A stretch of DNA of 47,329 nucleotides, taken from the NCBI GenBank assembly GCA_017545585.1, contig JAFWMK010000001.1, positions 1-47,329 of the forward strand. Reading direction: 5' to 3'. The translations under genes were made by a program, and so were the position numbers. The notes under the pieces were generated by a model. The model had not been told where the DNA came from and searched no databases. It saw only the letters and a program-made list of their open reading frames with translations. Below are positions 6,346 to 31,461 of the stretch, in pieces (the first letter of the stretch is position 1; each line of letters starts with the position of its first letter). This stretch comes from Candidatus Saccharimonadota bacterium. Its GTDB lineage: Bacteria > Patescibacteriota > Saccharimonadia > Saccharimonadales > Saccharimonadaceae.

Positions 6346-6404
6346 CCCGTTTTCAGTTAAAATCCACCTGCCAAAACCAAAATAGAAGGACATCAAAACC
6401 AAAC

Positions 6405-6456
6405 AAAAAAAGAAGGCGACATCCCGCATATATCCAATGCAGGACTCGCCTCCAAT
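6405..6456 (-). terminator. Strong intrinsic terminator, possibly the body of a short RNA
   Basis: On minus, AGGCGA (6446-6451) pairs with TCGCCT (6414-6419), and CCTGCAT with ATGCGGG (6437-6443 / 6423-6429), followed by TCTTTTTTT. It terminates the nuclease gene ending at 6475. Because a promoter-like sequence (6463-6491) lies just upstream, it may also define a separate ~52-nt RNA. Confidence 0.8.
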
Positions 6457-6462
6457 AACTTA

Positions 6463-6491
6463 ATTATACTCCAATTACTTTTCAAAATCAA
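6463..6491 (-). promoter_or_regulatory. Promoter-like sequence at the 3' end of the nuclease gene
   Basis: On minus, TTGATT (6486-6491), 17 nt, TATAAT (6463-6468). The -35 is within the last codons and the -10 is 6 nt past the stop. The same arrangement exists at the paralogous gene at 28828. Function is inferred. Confidence 0.5.
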
Positions 6492-6855
6492 GTATCTTAC
6501 GGGATTTGGTAATTACCTTTAATTTTTGCAAGTTTTTCGAACTGCCAAACTCTTTCTCTAACTCTTGCAAACATCTTTCCTGCGAGCGTTTTGCTCGCCT
6601 CAAATCAACAATAACATTCCTGGATTGTTTCACCGCCTTTTGAATTGTATTCTGCATCAAATATTTTCCTTCACCTTTCGGACTTTTCATTTCCCATCTT
6701 AGCCCGTTCATCACAATATCTGGTGCATGAACTCCTTTTTTCTCACTCTTTGGAATCAATTCCACATCGCTCCCCATTTCGGTAAATAACAGAATCGTCT
6801 TATATTCATGTTTCTCTAAGATAACACCATTTGGGATAATTTTACCTTTTTTCAT
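6475..6855 (-). CDS. Standalone CdiA-CT-like PD-(D/E)xK nuclease domain protein (paralogue A)
   Basis: This 126-aa protein matches the C-terminal nuclease (tRNase-type) domain found at the ends of contact-dependent inhibition toxins and some phage head proteins. The core is APDIVMNGLRWEMKSPKG (44-61), giving D46, E55 and K57 as PD-ExK residues, followed by the helix-strand IQKAVKQSRNVIVDLRR (71-87). There is no signal peptide or delivery domain, so it acts inside the cell or is exported by an unknown route. The ATG at 6855 is 7 nt after TATAAT; an in-frame ATG at 6864 overlaps the -10 and was rejected. A paralogue is at 28828-29223. No linked protein immunity gene was recognised. Confidence 0.7.
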   Translation of the reverse strand: MKKGKIIPNGVILEKHEYKTILLFTEMGSDVELIPKSEKKGVHAPDIVMNGLRWEMKSPKGEGKYLMQNTIQKAVKQSRNVIVDLRRAKRSQERCLQELEKEFGSSKNLQKLKVITKSRKILDFEK

Positions 6856-26740: not shown

Positions 26741-28657
26741 TTAGTTTCGCTTCAACATCACTGTAAACGCTTCCGGCGGAATATCGATTTTACCAAATCT
26801 TTTCATCCGTGCTTTGCCACGCTTTTGTTTTTCTAGAAGCTTAGCTTTTCTGTCCCGATCACCCGTATGAATTTTTACCAAGACATCTTTTCTGTATGCA
26901 CCAATTGTTTCTCTAGCAATGATTCTAGCCCCAATCGCCGCCTGAAGCGCCACTTCAAAATTCTGCCGCGGTATCACTTCTTTTAATTTTTTCGTCACCT
27001 CTCGTCCAATCGCCTCCGCCTCACTTCGATGCGCCATCACAGATAGTGCATCCATTCTCTCGCCCGCCACCAAAAAGTCTATTCTCACCAAATCTTCTGC
27101 CCTGTATCCATTTAGTTCGTAATTAAACGAAGCATACCCAGAGGTTGCCGATTTTAATTGATCATAAAAATCAGTAAGTAAATTTGCCATTGGCGCCTCA
27201 AAATCAATCACCGCCCGTTCTTCAATATAAGACAAATTCGTTTGGTGTCCACGTTTTTCGTTTATCAGATTAAGCACATTACCAATCATCTCGCGCGGCA
27301 CAATGATTTCGCCTTTTACCCACGGTTCACGAATCTCCGCAACTTCCGTCATATCCGGGAGATCCGACGCTGATTTTATCTCGATTAGCTCACCCGTATT
27401 TAATAAAACTTCATAATTTGTCGAAGGATTCGTGACAATTAAATCCAACCCAGACTCCCGCTCTAGTCGCTCTTTAATGATATCCATATGAAGAAGTCCG
27501 AGAAAGCCAATCCGAAGACCAAATCCTAAAACTGGCGAGTTTTCCGGCTGAAACTGCAGGGCCGAGTCAGACAAAGCTAATTTTTCAATCGCCTCTTTCA
27601 AATCTTTGTATTGATCATTCGATACCGGGAAAAATCCTGCATACACAAACGGCAAAACGTTCTTATAACCCGGCAAAGCCTCATGAGCTGGATTTTTTAC
27701 CAAAGTTACCGTATCGCCAACCTTTGCTTCGCGCGTAGTTTTAAGATTCGTCACAATATAGCCAATCTCTCCAGCTTTAAGAGAGTCTTTTGGCGCCATT
27801 TTTGGCGTCAATACCCCGACCTCAAGCGCCAAACCTTTAGTCTTCGCCGCCATCATCAAAATTTCAGAATTTTTATCAATCTCCCCCTCAAAAATTCGAA
27901 CATAAAGCACCACCCCACGATAATCATCAAAATACGAATCAAATATTAGAGCCCTGGTAGGAGAAACTAAACCAGTATTTTCTGAATCGTAAAATTGATT
28001 TGAATTTTTAACACGTATATTCCTGACGGACCGGACAGGTTCGCCCCGTAGGGGCGGTTCTGCCCGCGTCCCAGCGTATGACGTGCTTAAAAATTCAAGT
28101 CCAGACGAAGAAAATACTGGTTTAGTTTCTATTATCCGATCCAAGATTTTATCAATATTTAATCCAGTTTTTCCGGACACTTCAATAATATCATCCTTAG
28201 AGCATCCAAGCAGATTCATGATCTGCGCCGAAACTCCCTCCACATCCGCCGCGGGAAGATCTACTTTATTAATTACCGGAATAATCGTAAGATCCTGTTC
28301 CAATGCCAGATATACATTAGCAAGAGTCTGCGCCTGAATCCCCTGCGTAGCGTCTACCACCAGAACTGCCGTTTCTACCGCTTGCAATGAGCGTGATACT
28401 TCATACGAAAAATCCACATGCCCCGGCGTATCAATCAAATTAAGTGTATATCCCTTCCAATGCATCGTCACTGGTGCAAGCTTAATCGTGATACCTTTTT
28501 CACGTTCAAGATCCATCGAATCAAGTAACTGCGATTTCATTTCCCGTTTCGAAACCGTCCCAGTAATCTCCATCATCCGATCAGCAATGGTAGATTTACC
28601 GTGATCAATATGCGCAATTATACAAAAATTCCGGATCTTGTCCATTCCAAATTCCAT
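26741..28657 (-). CDS. lepA: Elongation factor 4 (LepA) with an inserted linker
   Basis: This 638-aa translational GTPase has FCIIAHIDHGKST (G1), RGITIK-like EKGITIKLA, DTPGHVDFSYEV (G3), and NKVDLP (G4). The C-terminal domain ends FGKIDIPPEAFTVMLKRN as in other LepA proteins. It is ~39 residues longer than E. coli LepA (599). The extra sequence (about residues 180-230) sits between the G domain and domain II, and its DNA is strikingly GC-rich with a hairpin (28021-28085). LepA acts on stalled or mispositioned ribosomes. A second in-frame ATG (28645) gives MDKIRNF, the usual start, so the N-terminus may be 4 residues shorter. Confidence 0.96.
   Translation of the reverse strand: MEFGMDKIRNFCIIAHIDHGKSTIADRMMEITGTVSKREMKSQLLDSMDLEREKGITIKLAPVTMHWKGYTLNLIDTPGHVDFSYEVSRSLQAVETAVLVVDATQGIQAQTLANVYLALEQDLTIIPVINKVDLPAADVEGVSAQIMNLLGCSKDDIIEVSGKTGLNIDKILDRIIETKPVFSSSGLEFLSTSYAGTRAEPPLRGEPVRSVRNIRVKNSNQFYDSENTGLVSPTRALIFDSYFDDYRGVVLYVRIFEGEIDKNSEILMMAAKTKGLALEVGVLTPKMAPKDSLKAGEIGYIVTNLKTTREAKVGDTVTLVKNPAHEALPGYKNVLPFVYAGFFPVSNDQYKDLKEAIEKLALSDSALQFQPENSPVLGFGLRIGFLGLLHMDIIKERLERESGLDLIVTNPSTNYEVLLNTGELIEIKSASDLPDMTEVAEIREPWVKGEIIVPREMIGNVLNLINEKRGHQTNLSYIEERAVIDFEAPMANLLTDFYDQLKSATSGYASFNYELNGYRAEDLVRIDFLVAGERMDALSVMAHRSEAEAIGREVTKKLKEVIPRQNFEVALQAAIGARIIARETIGAYRKDVLVKIHTGDRDRKAKLLEKQKRGKARMKRFGKIDIPPEAFTVMLKRN
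28021..28085. repeat. GC-rich palindromic insert within lepA
   Basis: This ~65-bp stretch is far more GC-rich than its surroundings. The core is CGCCCC-GTA-GGGGCG (28042-28056), with CGGACAG / CTGCCCG flanking arms (one mismatch) and outer GGAC/GTCC. It encodes about residues 191-212 of LepA, in frame, in a region absent from other LepA proteins. Compare 31921-31994 and 32299-32378. Confidence 0.6.
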
Positions 28658-28668
28658 ATATACTATAT

Positions 28669-28696
28669 ATTATATAACATTTTCTCATTACATCAA
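28669..28696 (-). promoter_or_regulatory. lepA promoter
   Basis: On minus, TTGATG (28691-28696), 16 nt, TATAAT (28669-28674). The ATG follows 11 nt after the -10, giving a very short leader. Confidence 0.65.
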
Positions 28697-28746
28697 GACT
28701 TGAGATATGATAAGCCCCAATCCCTACCCCTATTTTAAGCCATAAC

Positions 28747-28772
28747 AAAAATAGCCCTTCCGGGCTATTTTT
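28747..28772. terminator. Strong bidirectional intrinsic terminator
   Basis: An 11-bp perfect stem (AAAAATAGCCC / GGGCTATTTTT) with loop TTCC. The A/T ends give U-tracts on either strand. It separates the nuclease/sRNA unit from lepA. Confidence 0.9.
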
Positions 28773-28815
28773 GAAGGCCTATTGTATACAATGAAGTATC
28801 TTTAGCACCTTACTG
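28747..28815 (-). ncRNA. Candidate small RNA downstream of nuclease paralogue B
   Basis: A perfect consensus promoter (28822-28850) reads into a ~69-nt unit that ends at the strong terminator AAAAATAGCCC-GGAA-GGGCTATTTTTG (28772-28746 on minus). It holds a 12-nt palindrome, ATTGTATACAAT (28781-28792), and only a 13-codon GTG ORF with no SD. These signals suggest a discrete non-coding RNA of about 70 nt. There is no similarity to any RNA family I know. Confidence 0.6.
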
Positions 28816-28821
28816 CCCACA

Positions 28822-28850
28822 ATTATACTAAAGTATCTCTGAAATGTCAA
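28822..28850 (-). promoter_or_regulatory. Perfect consensus promoter embedded in the 3' end of nuclease paralogue B
   Basis: On minus, TTGACA (28845-28850), 17 nt, TATAAT (28822-28827). The -35 and spacer lie within the last codons, and the -10 begins right after the TAG stop (28828-28830). It cannot serve the nuclease gene and points to a downstream RNA. Confidence 0.85.
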
Positions 28851-29223
28851 CAATCTTCCCGTTTTTCCTTATAATCTTTAGCTGGCATTTTGCCCTTCTT
28901 CTCTTATTAAAAGAATCCCGAATTCTAGAAAACGCTTTATTCTCATTCATCTTACATCTTCTCAAATCTATTACAATATTATATGATTGGTGTCTTGCTG
29001 TTACAAAAATATTATGAATTGTATTCTTGCCATTCCCCATTGGACTTTTAAGTTCCCAGATTTGGTTATCGATTTTTAAATCTGGGCTCTTTAACGGAGT
29101 AGGTCTTAGAAACACAATATCTGTCTTGAAATATTCAGCTACCAAAATTGCTGCTGATATTTCAAAATCATAAGGTCTGTCTTTTTCTGAGGTCTCTACA
29201 ATTACTTTATGGTATTGTTTCAT
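28828..29223 (-). CDS. Standalone CdiA-CT-like PD-(D/E)xK nuclease domain protein (paralogue B)
   Basis: This 131-aa protein is a paralogue of the one at 6475-6855. It carries SPDLKIDNQIWELKSPMG (46-63; D48, E57, K59) and the helix-strand VTARHQSYNIVIDLRR (74-89), the signature of CdiA-CT-type tRNA nucleases. No secretion signal, delivery domain or neighbouring immunity protein is visible. It lies between pnp and lepA, but has its own weak promoter (TATGCT, 29235-29240, just 11 nt before the ATG) under a G-rich box. AGGTTGGTAGA immediately precedes the start. Function could be an orphan toxin, RNA-processing enzyme or defence nuclease; none is proven. Confidence 0.7.
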   Translation of the reverse strand: MKQYHKVIVETSEKDRPYDFEISAAILVAEYFKTDIVFLRPTPLKSPDLKIDNQIWELKSPMGNGKNTIHNIFVTARHQSYNIVIDLRRCKMNENKAFSRIRDSFNKRRRAKCQLKIIRKNGKIVDISEIL

Positions 29224-29283
29224 TCTACCAACCTAGCATATCTAGAGTCAAAATTCAACCCCACACCCCCGCTTATACTAAAA

Positions 29284-31461
29284 CTACTTTTCTATACCAA
29301 TCATCGAAAGACTAAGCTTACCGTGATCAATTGCGACAAGCCTCACGCGAACCTTGTCGCCAACATGCAAAACTTCTTCCACAGATTTAAGGCGTTTACC
29401 TTCCACGATTTGCGAAATATGGAGCATTCCGTCAATCCCAGGAAGGATGTTTACAAACGCACCGAAATCTTTAATTGTTACCACAGTGCCCTCATAAATC
29501 TTGCCAACTTCCGGCTCTTCAGTTAGATCCTTTACCCATTTCAAAGCTTTTTCGATCGATTCCGCATTAGTACCAGAAATCGTCACTAGACCATCCTCGG
29601 CAATATCCACTCCAGCGCCAGTCTCGGAAGTAATCTTGTTAATCATTTCCCCGCCTTTACCAATCACTGCGCCGATTTTGTCTTTGCTAATTTTCACCTT
29701 TTCAATTCGAGGTGCAAAATCCGAAATCTTTTTCCTCGGTTCTGGAATTACTTCAAGCAAATGTTTCAAAATAAACATTCTACCTTCATGACTCTGCTTA
29801 ATCGCCTTTTCGAGAATTTCCACCGGAAGACCATGTACTTTCATGTCCATTTGAAGCGCTGTGATACCTTCAGTTGTACCAGTCACCTTGAAGTCCATAT
29901 CACCAGCAAAATCTTCTGCATCCATCAAATCAGTCAAAACATACGCCTTATCGATATCGGAAGCCTCAATCGGCTGACCCTTAGGTACATCCACCATTAA
30001 GCCCATCGCTACGCCAGACACTGGACGCTTGAGAGGCACGCCTGCATCCATCAAAGCCATACAAGAAGAGCAAGTCGCTGCCATAGAGGTAGAACCATTC
30101 TGAGACATAATCTCAGTCACACTTCTGATTGCATATGGAAAATCCTCTTCAGAAGGAAGCACCGGAAGAAGCGCTCTTTCAGCCAAATATCCATGCCCCA
30201 CTTCGCGACGTCCAGGGGACCCCAATCTACCACACTCACCTACAGTATAAGATGGTGCATTGTAATGATGCATATAGCGCCTCTTACCATCAGTCACTTC
30301 CATCGTATCCACATCTTGAGAATAAGAAAGCGGCGCCAAAGTCACGATATTCATCGCCTGGGTCACGCCACGCGTAAAGAGTGAAGAACCGTGCACTCTA
30401 GGCAGAATCCCAACTTGAGAGGACAAAGGACGAACCTCGGTCAATTTACGACCATCTGGGCGCACTCCTTCTTCGAGGATTCCTCGTCGCACTTCTTTAT
30501 GAACCGCAAGTTCAAAAGCCTGATCATAGACATCACGCAAATTTTCATCATACCATTTTACTTTTTCGTTGTCAGTCTCGCCTTCACCCTTAGAAAGAGC
30601 AAATTCATCATGCATGTTGTATTTCATCTCATCAAGCATTTGTGCCCGTTCCATCACATTACCACGAATCTTCGAACCAAATTTACCTTCAGTCCACTTA
30701 GCCACCTCGGCAATTACTTCATCAGATGGCAAAACCAATTCATATTCTTGCTCTGGCGCTGCTACTTGCTTAGCTAATTGTCGTTGCAAGTCCAAAACTG
30801 GCTGGACATTTTCCACTGCCCAGTGCATTGCTTCAATGATTGTATCTTCTGGTACTTCATTTGCACCAGCCTCCACCATTACTACCTTACCGTCTTTACA
30901 AGCCACCACAAGATCAAGCGGAGATTGCTCTCTTTCGGCTGGCGACAAAAAGCCTTTAAACTCTCCACCAATTCTACCAATCCTAATCCCTGCCACTGGT
31001 CCATCAAATGGCACGCCAGCGTTCATGAGAGCGGCCGACGCCGCAATCATCGCCACACAATCTGGCCTAAACGACGGGTCCATTGAAAGAACCGTACAGA
31101 CCACCTGAATCTCCTGACGATACCCCTTCGGGAAAAGCGGCCTTATCGGACGATCAATCAAACGACCAACTAAGATAGCCTCGTCCGCTGGTTTGCCTTC
31201 CCTCTTAATAAACCGCGAAGCCGAAATCTTGCCCGCTGCATAGAATTTCTCTTCGTAGTCAATCGAAAGTGGGAAAAAGTCCTGCACTACCGGTTTGGTC
31301 CCTACTACTACCGAACCAAGTACCACAGTATCCCCATAGGTCACGAGCACCGAAGATGTAGTCCGAAAGCCTACTCTATTTACTTCCAAAGTTAGCTCTC
31401 GCCCCAACCAATCACAAGACACCTTCATGGTTTTCTTGCCATTAGGGTTAATTATTTCCAT
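29284..31461 (-). CDS. pnp: Polyribonucleotide nucleotidyltransferase
   Basis: This 725-aa protein has two RNase PH domains; the second carries SQNGSTSMAATCSSCMALMD and the metal-binding LTDLMDAEDFAGDMDFK. KH (KDKIGAVIGKGGEMINKI) and S1 (GKIYEGTVVTIKDFGAFVN) domains complete the usual layout. PNPase degrades RNA 3' to 5' with phosphate. Its 5' leader folds into a long hairpin (31479-31540), recalling the RNase III/PNPase autoregulation of E. coli pnp. The start has SD AAAGGA. truB lies upstream, with the pnp promoter overlapping its stop codon. Confidence 0.97.
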   Translation of the reverse strand: MEIINPNGKKTMKVSCDWLGRELTLEVNRVGFRTTSSVLVTYGDTVVLGSVVVGTKPVVQDFFPLSIDYEEKFYAAGKISASRFIKREGKPADEAILVGRLIDRPIRPLFPKGYRQEIQVVCTVLSMDPSFRPDCVAMIAASAALMNAGVPFDGPVAGIRIGRIGGEFKGFLSPAEREQSPLDLVVACKDGKVVMVEAGANEVPEDTIIEAMHWAVENVQPVLDLQRQLAKQVAAPEQEYELVLPSDEVIAEVAKWTEGKFGSKIRGNVMERAQMLDEMKYNMHDEFALSKGEGETDNEKVKWYDENLRDVYDQAFELAVHKEVRRGILEEGVRPDGRKLTEVRPLSSQVGILPRVHGSSLFTRGVTQAMNIVTLAPLSYSQDVDTMEVTDGKRRYMHHYNAPSYTVGECGRLGSPGRREVGHGYLAERALLPVLPSEEDFPYAIRSVTEIMSQNGSTSMAATCSSCMALMDAGVPLKRPVSGVAMGLMVDVPKGQPIEASDIDKAYVLTDLMDAEDFAGDMDFKVTGTTEGITALQMDMKVHGLPVEILEKAIKQSHEGRMFILKHLLEVIPEPRKKISDFAPRIEKVKISKDKIGAVIGKGGEMINKITSETGAGVDIAEDGLVTISGTNAESIEKALKWVKDLTEEPEVGKIYEGTVVTIKDFGAFVNILPGIDGMLHISQIVEGKRLKSVEEVLHVGDKVRVRLVAIDHGKLSLSMIGIEK

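Follow-up and report, generated by a model that had tools for sequence, protein, structure and literature searches.

A stand-alone CdiA_C nuclease of Saccharibacteria is linked to a short structured RNA that is probably its antidote

The DNA analysed here (the window) is a 47,329-nucleotide stretch of a Saccharibacteria contig. On its minus strand, pnp (31461-29284) is followed by a 131-aa ORF (28828-29223), a promoter, a short segment, a hairpin and lepA (28657-26741). The ORF matches the Pfam CdiA_C profile (PF18451) with an E value of 8e-16 and 58.4 bits against a cutoff of 26.6, and its catalytic residues D48, E57 and K59 are the sole invariant residues across 34 homologues. The initial annotation had placed a stand-alone PD-(D/E)xK domain with these three residues at this position, and its coordinates, residues and domain description were all correct. 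The profile score above the curated cutoff, the catalytic residues and the fold described below place the protein in the CdiA_C family, and we propose that it is a toxin. Also as annotated, no delivery domain or protein immunity gene accompanies the nuclease: the pnp-lepA gap (28657-29284) is about 630 bases long and contains the nuclease and RNA unit only, with no further protein-coding content. The locus thus lacks both the CdiA/CdiB-like delivery protein and the adjacent protein immunity gene that characterize CDI and polymorphic effector loci, and searches with PADLOC and NCBIfam returned no match. Near relatives of the nuclease in named records belong to Candidatus Saccharibacteria, chiefly from ruminant gut metagenome bins.

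An AlphaFold2 model of the window nuclease (pLDDT 87.6) had its best match among solved structures in 4g6v, the CdiA-CT of B. pseudomallei 1026b, with a Foldseek E value of 1.3e-5, a Z score of 10.6 and an rmsd of 4.0 over 118 residues; the corresponding profile E value was 3.6e-7. The 4g6v domain is listed as a tRNase (PMC9990079), and from this modelled likeness the proposed toxin is probably a tRNase as well. Upstream of the gene lies a candidate weak promoter, TTGAAT-17-TAGGTT (29230-29258, minus strand), which is overlapped by a second promoter match, TTGACT-18-TAGAAT. The -10 element of the candidate promoter ends 6 nt before the ATG, which suggests that the window mRNA is leaderless. 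The same arrangement recurs across the nuclease genes, where the -10 usually ends 6-7 nt before the ATG, again suggestive of a leaderless mRNA. These upstream promoters were weaker than the RNA promoters described below (mean match 8.1/12 against 10.4, with a shifted control at 6.0), although the nuclease scores are inflated by taking the best of several starts and spacings, and the RNA promoters were pre-selected at >=9.

The RNA promoter (28822-28850, minus strand) consists of TTGACA (28850-28845), 17 nt and TATAAT (28827-28822). Its -35 element lies within the last codons of the nuclease gene and its -10 begins directly after the TAG stop, so that the perfect 12/12 consensus reported in the initial annotation is indeed present. 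The assembly to which the window belongs (G000, 549 kb) contains 30 perfect TTGACA-16/18-TATAAT promoters and none when the pattern is read backwards; a perfect promoter is thus a real signal but is not special by itself, and it is the place of this one that is special. Many of the 30 have TGTG or TG ahead of the -10. From the promoter and the terminator we infer an RNA of about 70-75 nt (28746-28815, minus strand), the proposed antitoxin, which belongs to a sequence class (A) related to a second class (G). Its predicted structure comprises a closing stem, AAGGU(G)CUA / UAGGCCUU, and an inner hairpin around GAUAC...GUAUAC. The transcript of about 75 nt has a folding energy of -25.5 kcal/mol (z -4.1), most of which is contributed by the terminator. 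This terminator (28746-28773, minus strand) is a hairpin with perfect arms of 12 bp (28746-28757 and 28762-28773) and a 4-nt loop; an intrinsic terminator had been correctly recognized here, but with arms of 11 bp. A terminator scan of the window listed none at this hairpin, probably because its T run sits inside the stem.

No protein-sized ORF is present on the same strand between the nuclease stop and lepA, in agreement with the earlier view that the downstream unit has no credible coding capacity. Rfam, at gathering and permissive thresholds, contains no family for these RNAs, and none reached threshold between the nuclease and lepA. A tRNA and tmRNA search of the window found none. Simple mimicry of tRNA by sequence is not supported, as the RNA classes were unlike 58 tRNAs from the loci (best E about 0.09). 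The core of the RNA, CTAAAGATACTTCATTGTATACAATAGG, recurs in 14/174 genomes of the genus with <=3 mismatches, against 0 for the control, and this recurrence exceeds chance.

The window holds a second pair with the same architecture. A paralogous CdiA_C nuclease gene (6475-6855, minus strand) has a promoter, TTGATT-17-TATAAT, across its stop codon (6463-6491, minus strand), followed by a second proposed RNA antitoxin, of class D (6403-6456, minus strand; ends approximate), in which the closing stem followed by T7 forms the terminator.

The site of the first pair is variable among relatives (loci L356-L367). Either no gap or one of tens of bases separates pnp from lepA in five genomes (G001, G003, G015, G020 and G012), while in four others (G004, G006, G007 and G018) unrelated ORFs of 190 to 360 aa occupy the junction. 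Because the inserts differ among genomes, the junction looks like an insertion hotspot. The position of lepA, downstream on the same strand, allows a reading in which lepA is transcribed from this promoter and the hairpin acts as an attenuator within the lepA leader. We regard this as extremely improbable: the terminator stands between the promoter and lepA, the pair occurs elsewhere with other neighbours in other genomes, and an 11/12 promoter-like site is already present at the start of lepA.

CdiA_C genes were present in 121/174 genomes of the genus, with up to nine per genome. In a sample of the phylum only 14/380 genomes had such a gene, three of the 14 from this genus, which indicates that the system is concentrated in and near the genus. 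Across 156 distinct CdiA_C genes, a sigma-70-like promoter spanned the stop codon in 138 at a match of >=9/12 and in 112 at >=10/12, whereas among 266 control ORFs of >=200 aa the counts were 41 and 14. The -35 element starts mostly at -20, -14 or -11 from the stop and keeps one codon phase throughout, so that xTTGAC encodes a conserved hydrophobic-Asp pair. At the promoter Asp codon GAC was used in 56/86 cases, compared with 185/602 elsewhere in the same genes (P = 2e-9, a value that is too small since the genes are related). This bias suggests selection on the DNA and not on the protein only. Promoter and terminator occurred together in 106/146 cases, as against 10/388 controls.

Several observations were made outside this group. 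One contig (L245), binned as Clostridiales Family XIII, has two CdiA_C genes in tandem, and behind each of them stand a promoter-like site and a terminated RNA with a different sequence; unless this contig was assigned to the wrong bin, the system extends into Bacillota. In viral contigs, a search with alignment A3 found no relative, and no class E RNA was found; a plasmid search found none. CdiA_C-like sequence lies inside annotated genes of three streptococcal prophages (H1-H3; KY065465, MK448810 and MK448733); two of these genes are annotated as minor capsid protein and one as hypothetical protein.

Among intact nucleases with >=150 nt of downstream sequence, 146/153 had an RNA of a named class next to them, and for 137 of these the class had >=2 members. 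The count is circular in part, since these same regions served to define the classes, a limitation that does not apply to the promoter, terminator and covariation tests. Five of the remaining seven had a promoter and hairpin by eye (L039, L041, L233 and both L245 genes), leaving two (L197 and L219) without a recognizable RNA unit. The suggestion in the initial annotation that the nuclease has an RNA partner is supported by these counts, as is the expectation that related genomes would conserve the RNA unit, the nuclease having been kept without it in only 2/153 cases. RNA class tracks the nuclease tree (13 label changes, against 85.8 when shuffled), a correspondence that physical linkage alone would also produce. 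At some loci (L058, L061, L205 and L216) the RNA is on the strand opposite to the nuclease, and in another Patescibacteria family (f48) the same was seen by eye at L337-L339, L345 and L346. The RNA is therefore not the 3' end of the nuclease transcript. Taken as sequence evidence, the RNA unit and its linkage to the nuclease are well supported.

A gene and its terminator might still be accompanied by an unrelated trans-acting small RNA or a recombination element that travels along with them. In favour of this, the unit lies inserted at a hotspot, and one relative (G007) holds the window's pair at a different locus, with 84% identity in both parts. We consider such a traveller improbable, since RNA classes track nuclease subfamilies, the structures covary and the RNA can lie on either strand beside the nuclease; in addition, a non-exhaustive look did not find the units regularly after other gene families.

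The downstream RNAs can be grouped by sequence into at least eight classes (A, B, C, D, E, F, G and S, with 7 to 40 genes each in the nuclease tree set), together with small groups and singletons. They are short and consist of a closing stem, an internal loop and an inner hairpin. In most classes the closing stem and the T run after it form the terminator, while class A, to which the window RNA belongs and which is similar to class G, and part of class G have a separate terminator hairpin after the RNA. Changes on both sides of a pair were found in 8/9 pairs of classes A/G, 9/15 of E, 9/14 of D and 5/15 of C, and the A/G covariation score was 0.596, compared with 0.214 for shuffled alignments and <=0.164 with the partner slid. 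This covariation supports the predicted RNA structures in classes A/G, C, D and E. The apical (inner-hairpin) loops of most classes contain a G-N-A core (120/134, compared with 49 when loops were shuffled; the rows are not independent of one another, and class A, to which the window RNA belongs, is an exception). This core, in the loops UGGAU, UGUAA, UGAAU, AGUAU and CGGAA, is shared by otherwise unrelated classes (C, D, E, G, S and others), and it is possibly a common element by which the nuclease recognizes the RNA. Two RNA units of different classes can stand in tandem after one nuclease, as D then S at L136 and, in another genus of the family, E then a G-like RNA at L329.

These features bear on what the RNA does. 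Because it is encoded at the 3' end of the nuclease gene, it could be thought to guide the nuclease to a nucleic acid target in the manner of TnpB or IscB. The RNAs are conserved over their whole length within classes and have no variable segment, and the nuclease is a 131-aa CdiA_C domain; a guide, one of three roles put forward in the initial annotation, is hence a most improbable one. Type I antitoxins are likewise short RNAs beside a toxin, and the RNA might act as an antisense regulator of the nuclease mRNA. In 60 sampled pairs, however, an RNA paired with its own mRNA no more strongly than with the mRNAs belonging to other classes (mean z of 0.03 over the 5' region and 0.00 over the full mRNA), and the window's RNA ranked low, which makes antisense control very unlikely.

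Loss of the two parts was asymmetric. RNA units with broken or absent nucleases were common and the reverse, a nuclease without an RNA, was rare. In sampled loci the nuclease was intact, fragmentary or absent in 12, 12 and 5 cases with the A/G model, 24, 3 and 3 with the E model, and 5, 5 and 5 with the class A pattern; some broken nucleases may be assembly errors, and metagenome bins may hold frameshift errors and missing regions. Class E RNAs without any nuclease match were found in seven genomes (G012, G032, G063, G066, G067, G069 and G110), several of which are incomplete bins. At four loci (L088, L089, L093 and L097) the promoter and RNA were retained while most of the nuclease was gone, and two genomes had toxin-free arrays of mixed classes with no nuclease adjoining, E-C-E in G110 and F-A-F-E in G181.

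This pattern separates the remaining roles. The tight linkage and class correspondence would suit any obligate protein-RNA partnership, including one in which the RNA serves the nuclease as activator or cofactor, for instance as a scaffold or by presenting the substrate, and does not inhibit it. Such a cofactor would be expected to vanish with the enzyme, yet the RNAs and their promoter outlast the nuclease and form toxin-free mixed-class arrays, and we regard this role as unlikely. A pure substrate, as the initial annotation also suggested, accounts poorly for the orphan RNAs and arrays. An antitoxin, the third role it offered, is the best fit, the RNAs being kept after loss of the nuclease. 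The orphans and mixed arrays could conceivably be an acquired repertoire of RNA immunity. Each RNA would act against one nuclease class of neighbours or of mobile DNA, and the arrays would correspond, in RNA, to the arrays of orphan immunity genes found in polymorphic toxin systems; we put this forward as a doubtful extension.

Comparison of the genomes establishes, at the level of sequence, the promoter, the terminator, the structured RNA, the linkage to CdiA_C, the class correspondence and the asymmetric loss. The tiny structured RNA is probably the antidote of the toxin, and we consider it likely that the two form a toxin-antitoxin module working like type III, in which the RNA neutralizes the nuclease by binding. 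The toxin would be the stand-alone CdiA_C nuclease, expressed at a low level from a weak, probably leaderless promoter. The antitoxin would be the short structured RNA; a strong promoter of its own, within the toxin's last codons, would drive it, and an intrinsic terminator would end the transcript. By analogy with ToxI and ToxN, the RNA would bind and neutralize its cognate nuclease. RNA sequence and nuclease subfamily would have diversified together into many classes; with decay of the nuclease the RNA would often be kept, and orphans would gather in arrays, where they would probably shield the cell from related modules arriving by transfer.

The proposed logic resembles that of the type III systems ToxIN, CptIN and TenpIN (PMC5086642), in which a short structured RNA binds a nuclease toxin and so neutralizes it, and an intrinsic terminator follows the RNA in both. 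Canonical type III systems have a ToxN-fold toxin and a tandem-repeat RNA upstream, with one promoter and a terminator between (PMC5086642). Here, by contrast, the toxin is a CdiA_C PD-(D/E)xK nuclease by profile and best fold match, and the RNA, as a rule one unit lying downstream or on the opposite strand, has a separate promoter embedded in the final codons of the toxin gene. Canonical membership was accordingly rejected, as neither the toxin family (ToxN/AbiQ/CptN/TenpN) nor the upstream repeat layout is found, but the pair may work like type III all the same. ToxN-type folds were absent among the listed structure matches, an absence that we do not count as evidence. AbiF / RCd22 (PMC12373285) is similarly type-III-like, with a non-ToxN toxin neutralized by a small RNA through direct RNA-protein interaction; it differs in that AbiF belongs to the Abi_2 family and its RNA, which has two repeated motifs, is encoded ahead of the gene (PMC12373285). 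CdiA-CT of 1026b (4g6v), SitA3 and other PF18451 effectors (PMC9990079) share the nuclease family and fold, but those are domains of delivered effectors, and CdiA-CT is neutralized by the protein CdiI. In the system described here an RNA gene stands in the place of the immunity gene, and there is neither a delivery domain nor a protein immunity gene. A literature search of open-access papers, with subscription journals and preprints largely outside its scope, found no description of this pairing of nuclease and RNA.

To our knowledge, few kinds of protein toxin neutralized by RNA are known. If our reading is correct, CdiA_C, a fold otherwise met in delivered effectors with protein antidotes, would be new among RNA-neutralized toxins, and an antidote promoter inside the toxin's last codons would be a new gene layout. 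The many natural RNA classes would serve the study of how RNA-protein specificity co-evolves. In bacteria that depend on a host and have very small genomes, an abundant group of genes would also gain a function, as would RNAs that lack annotation.
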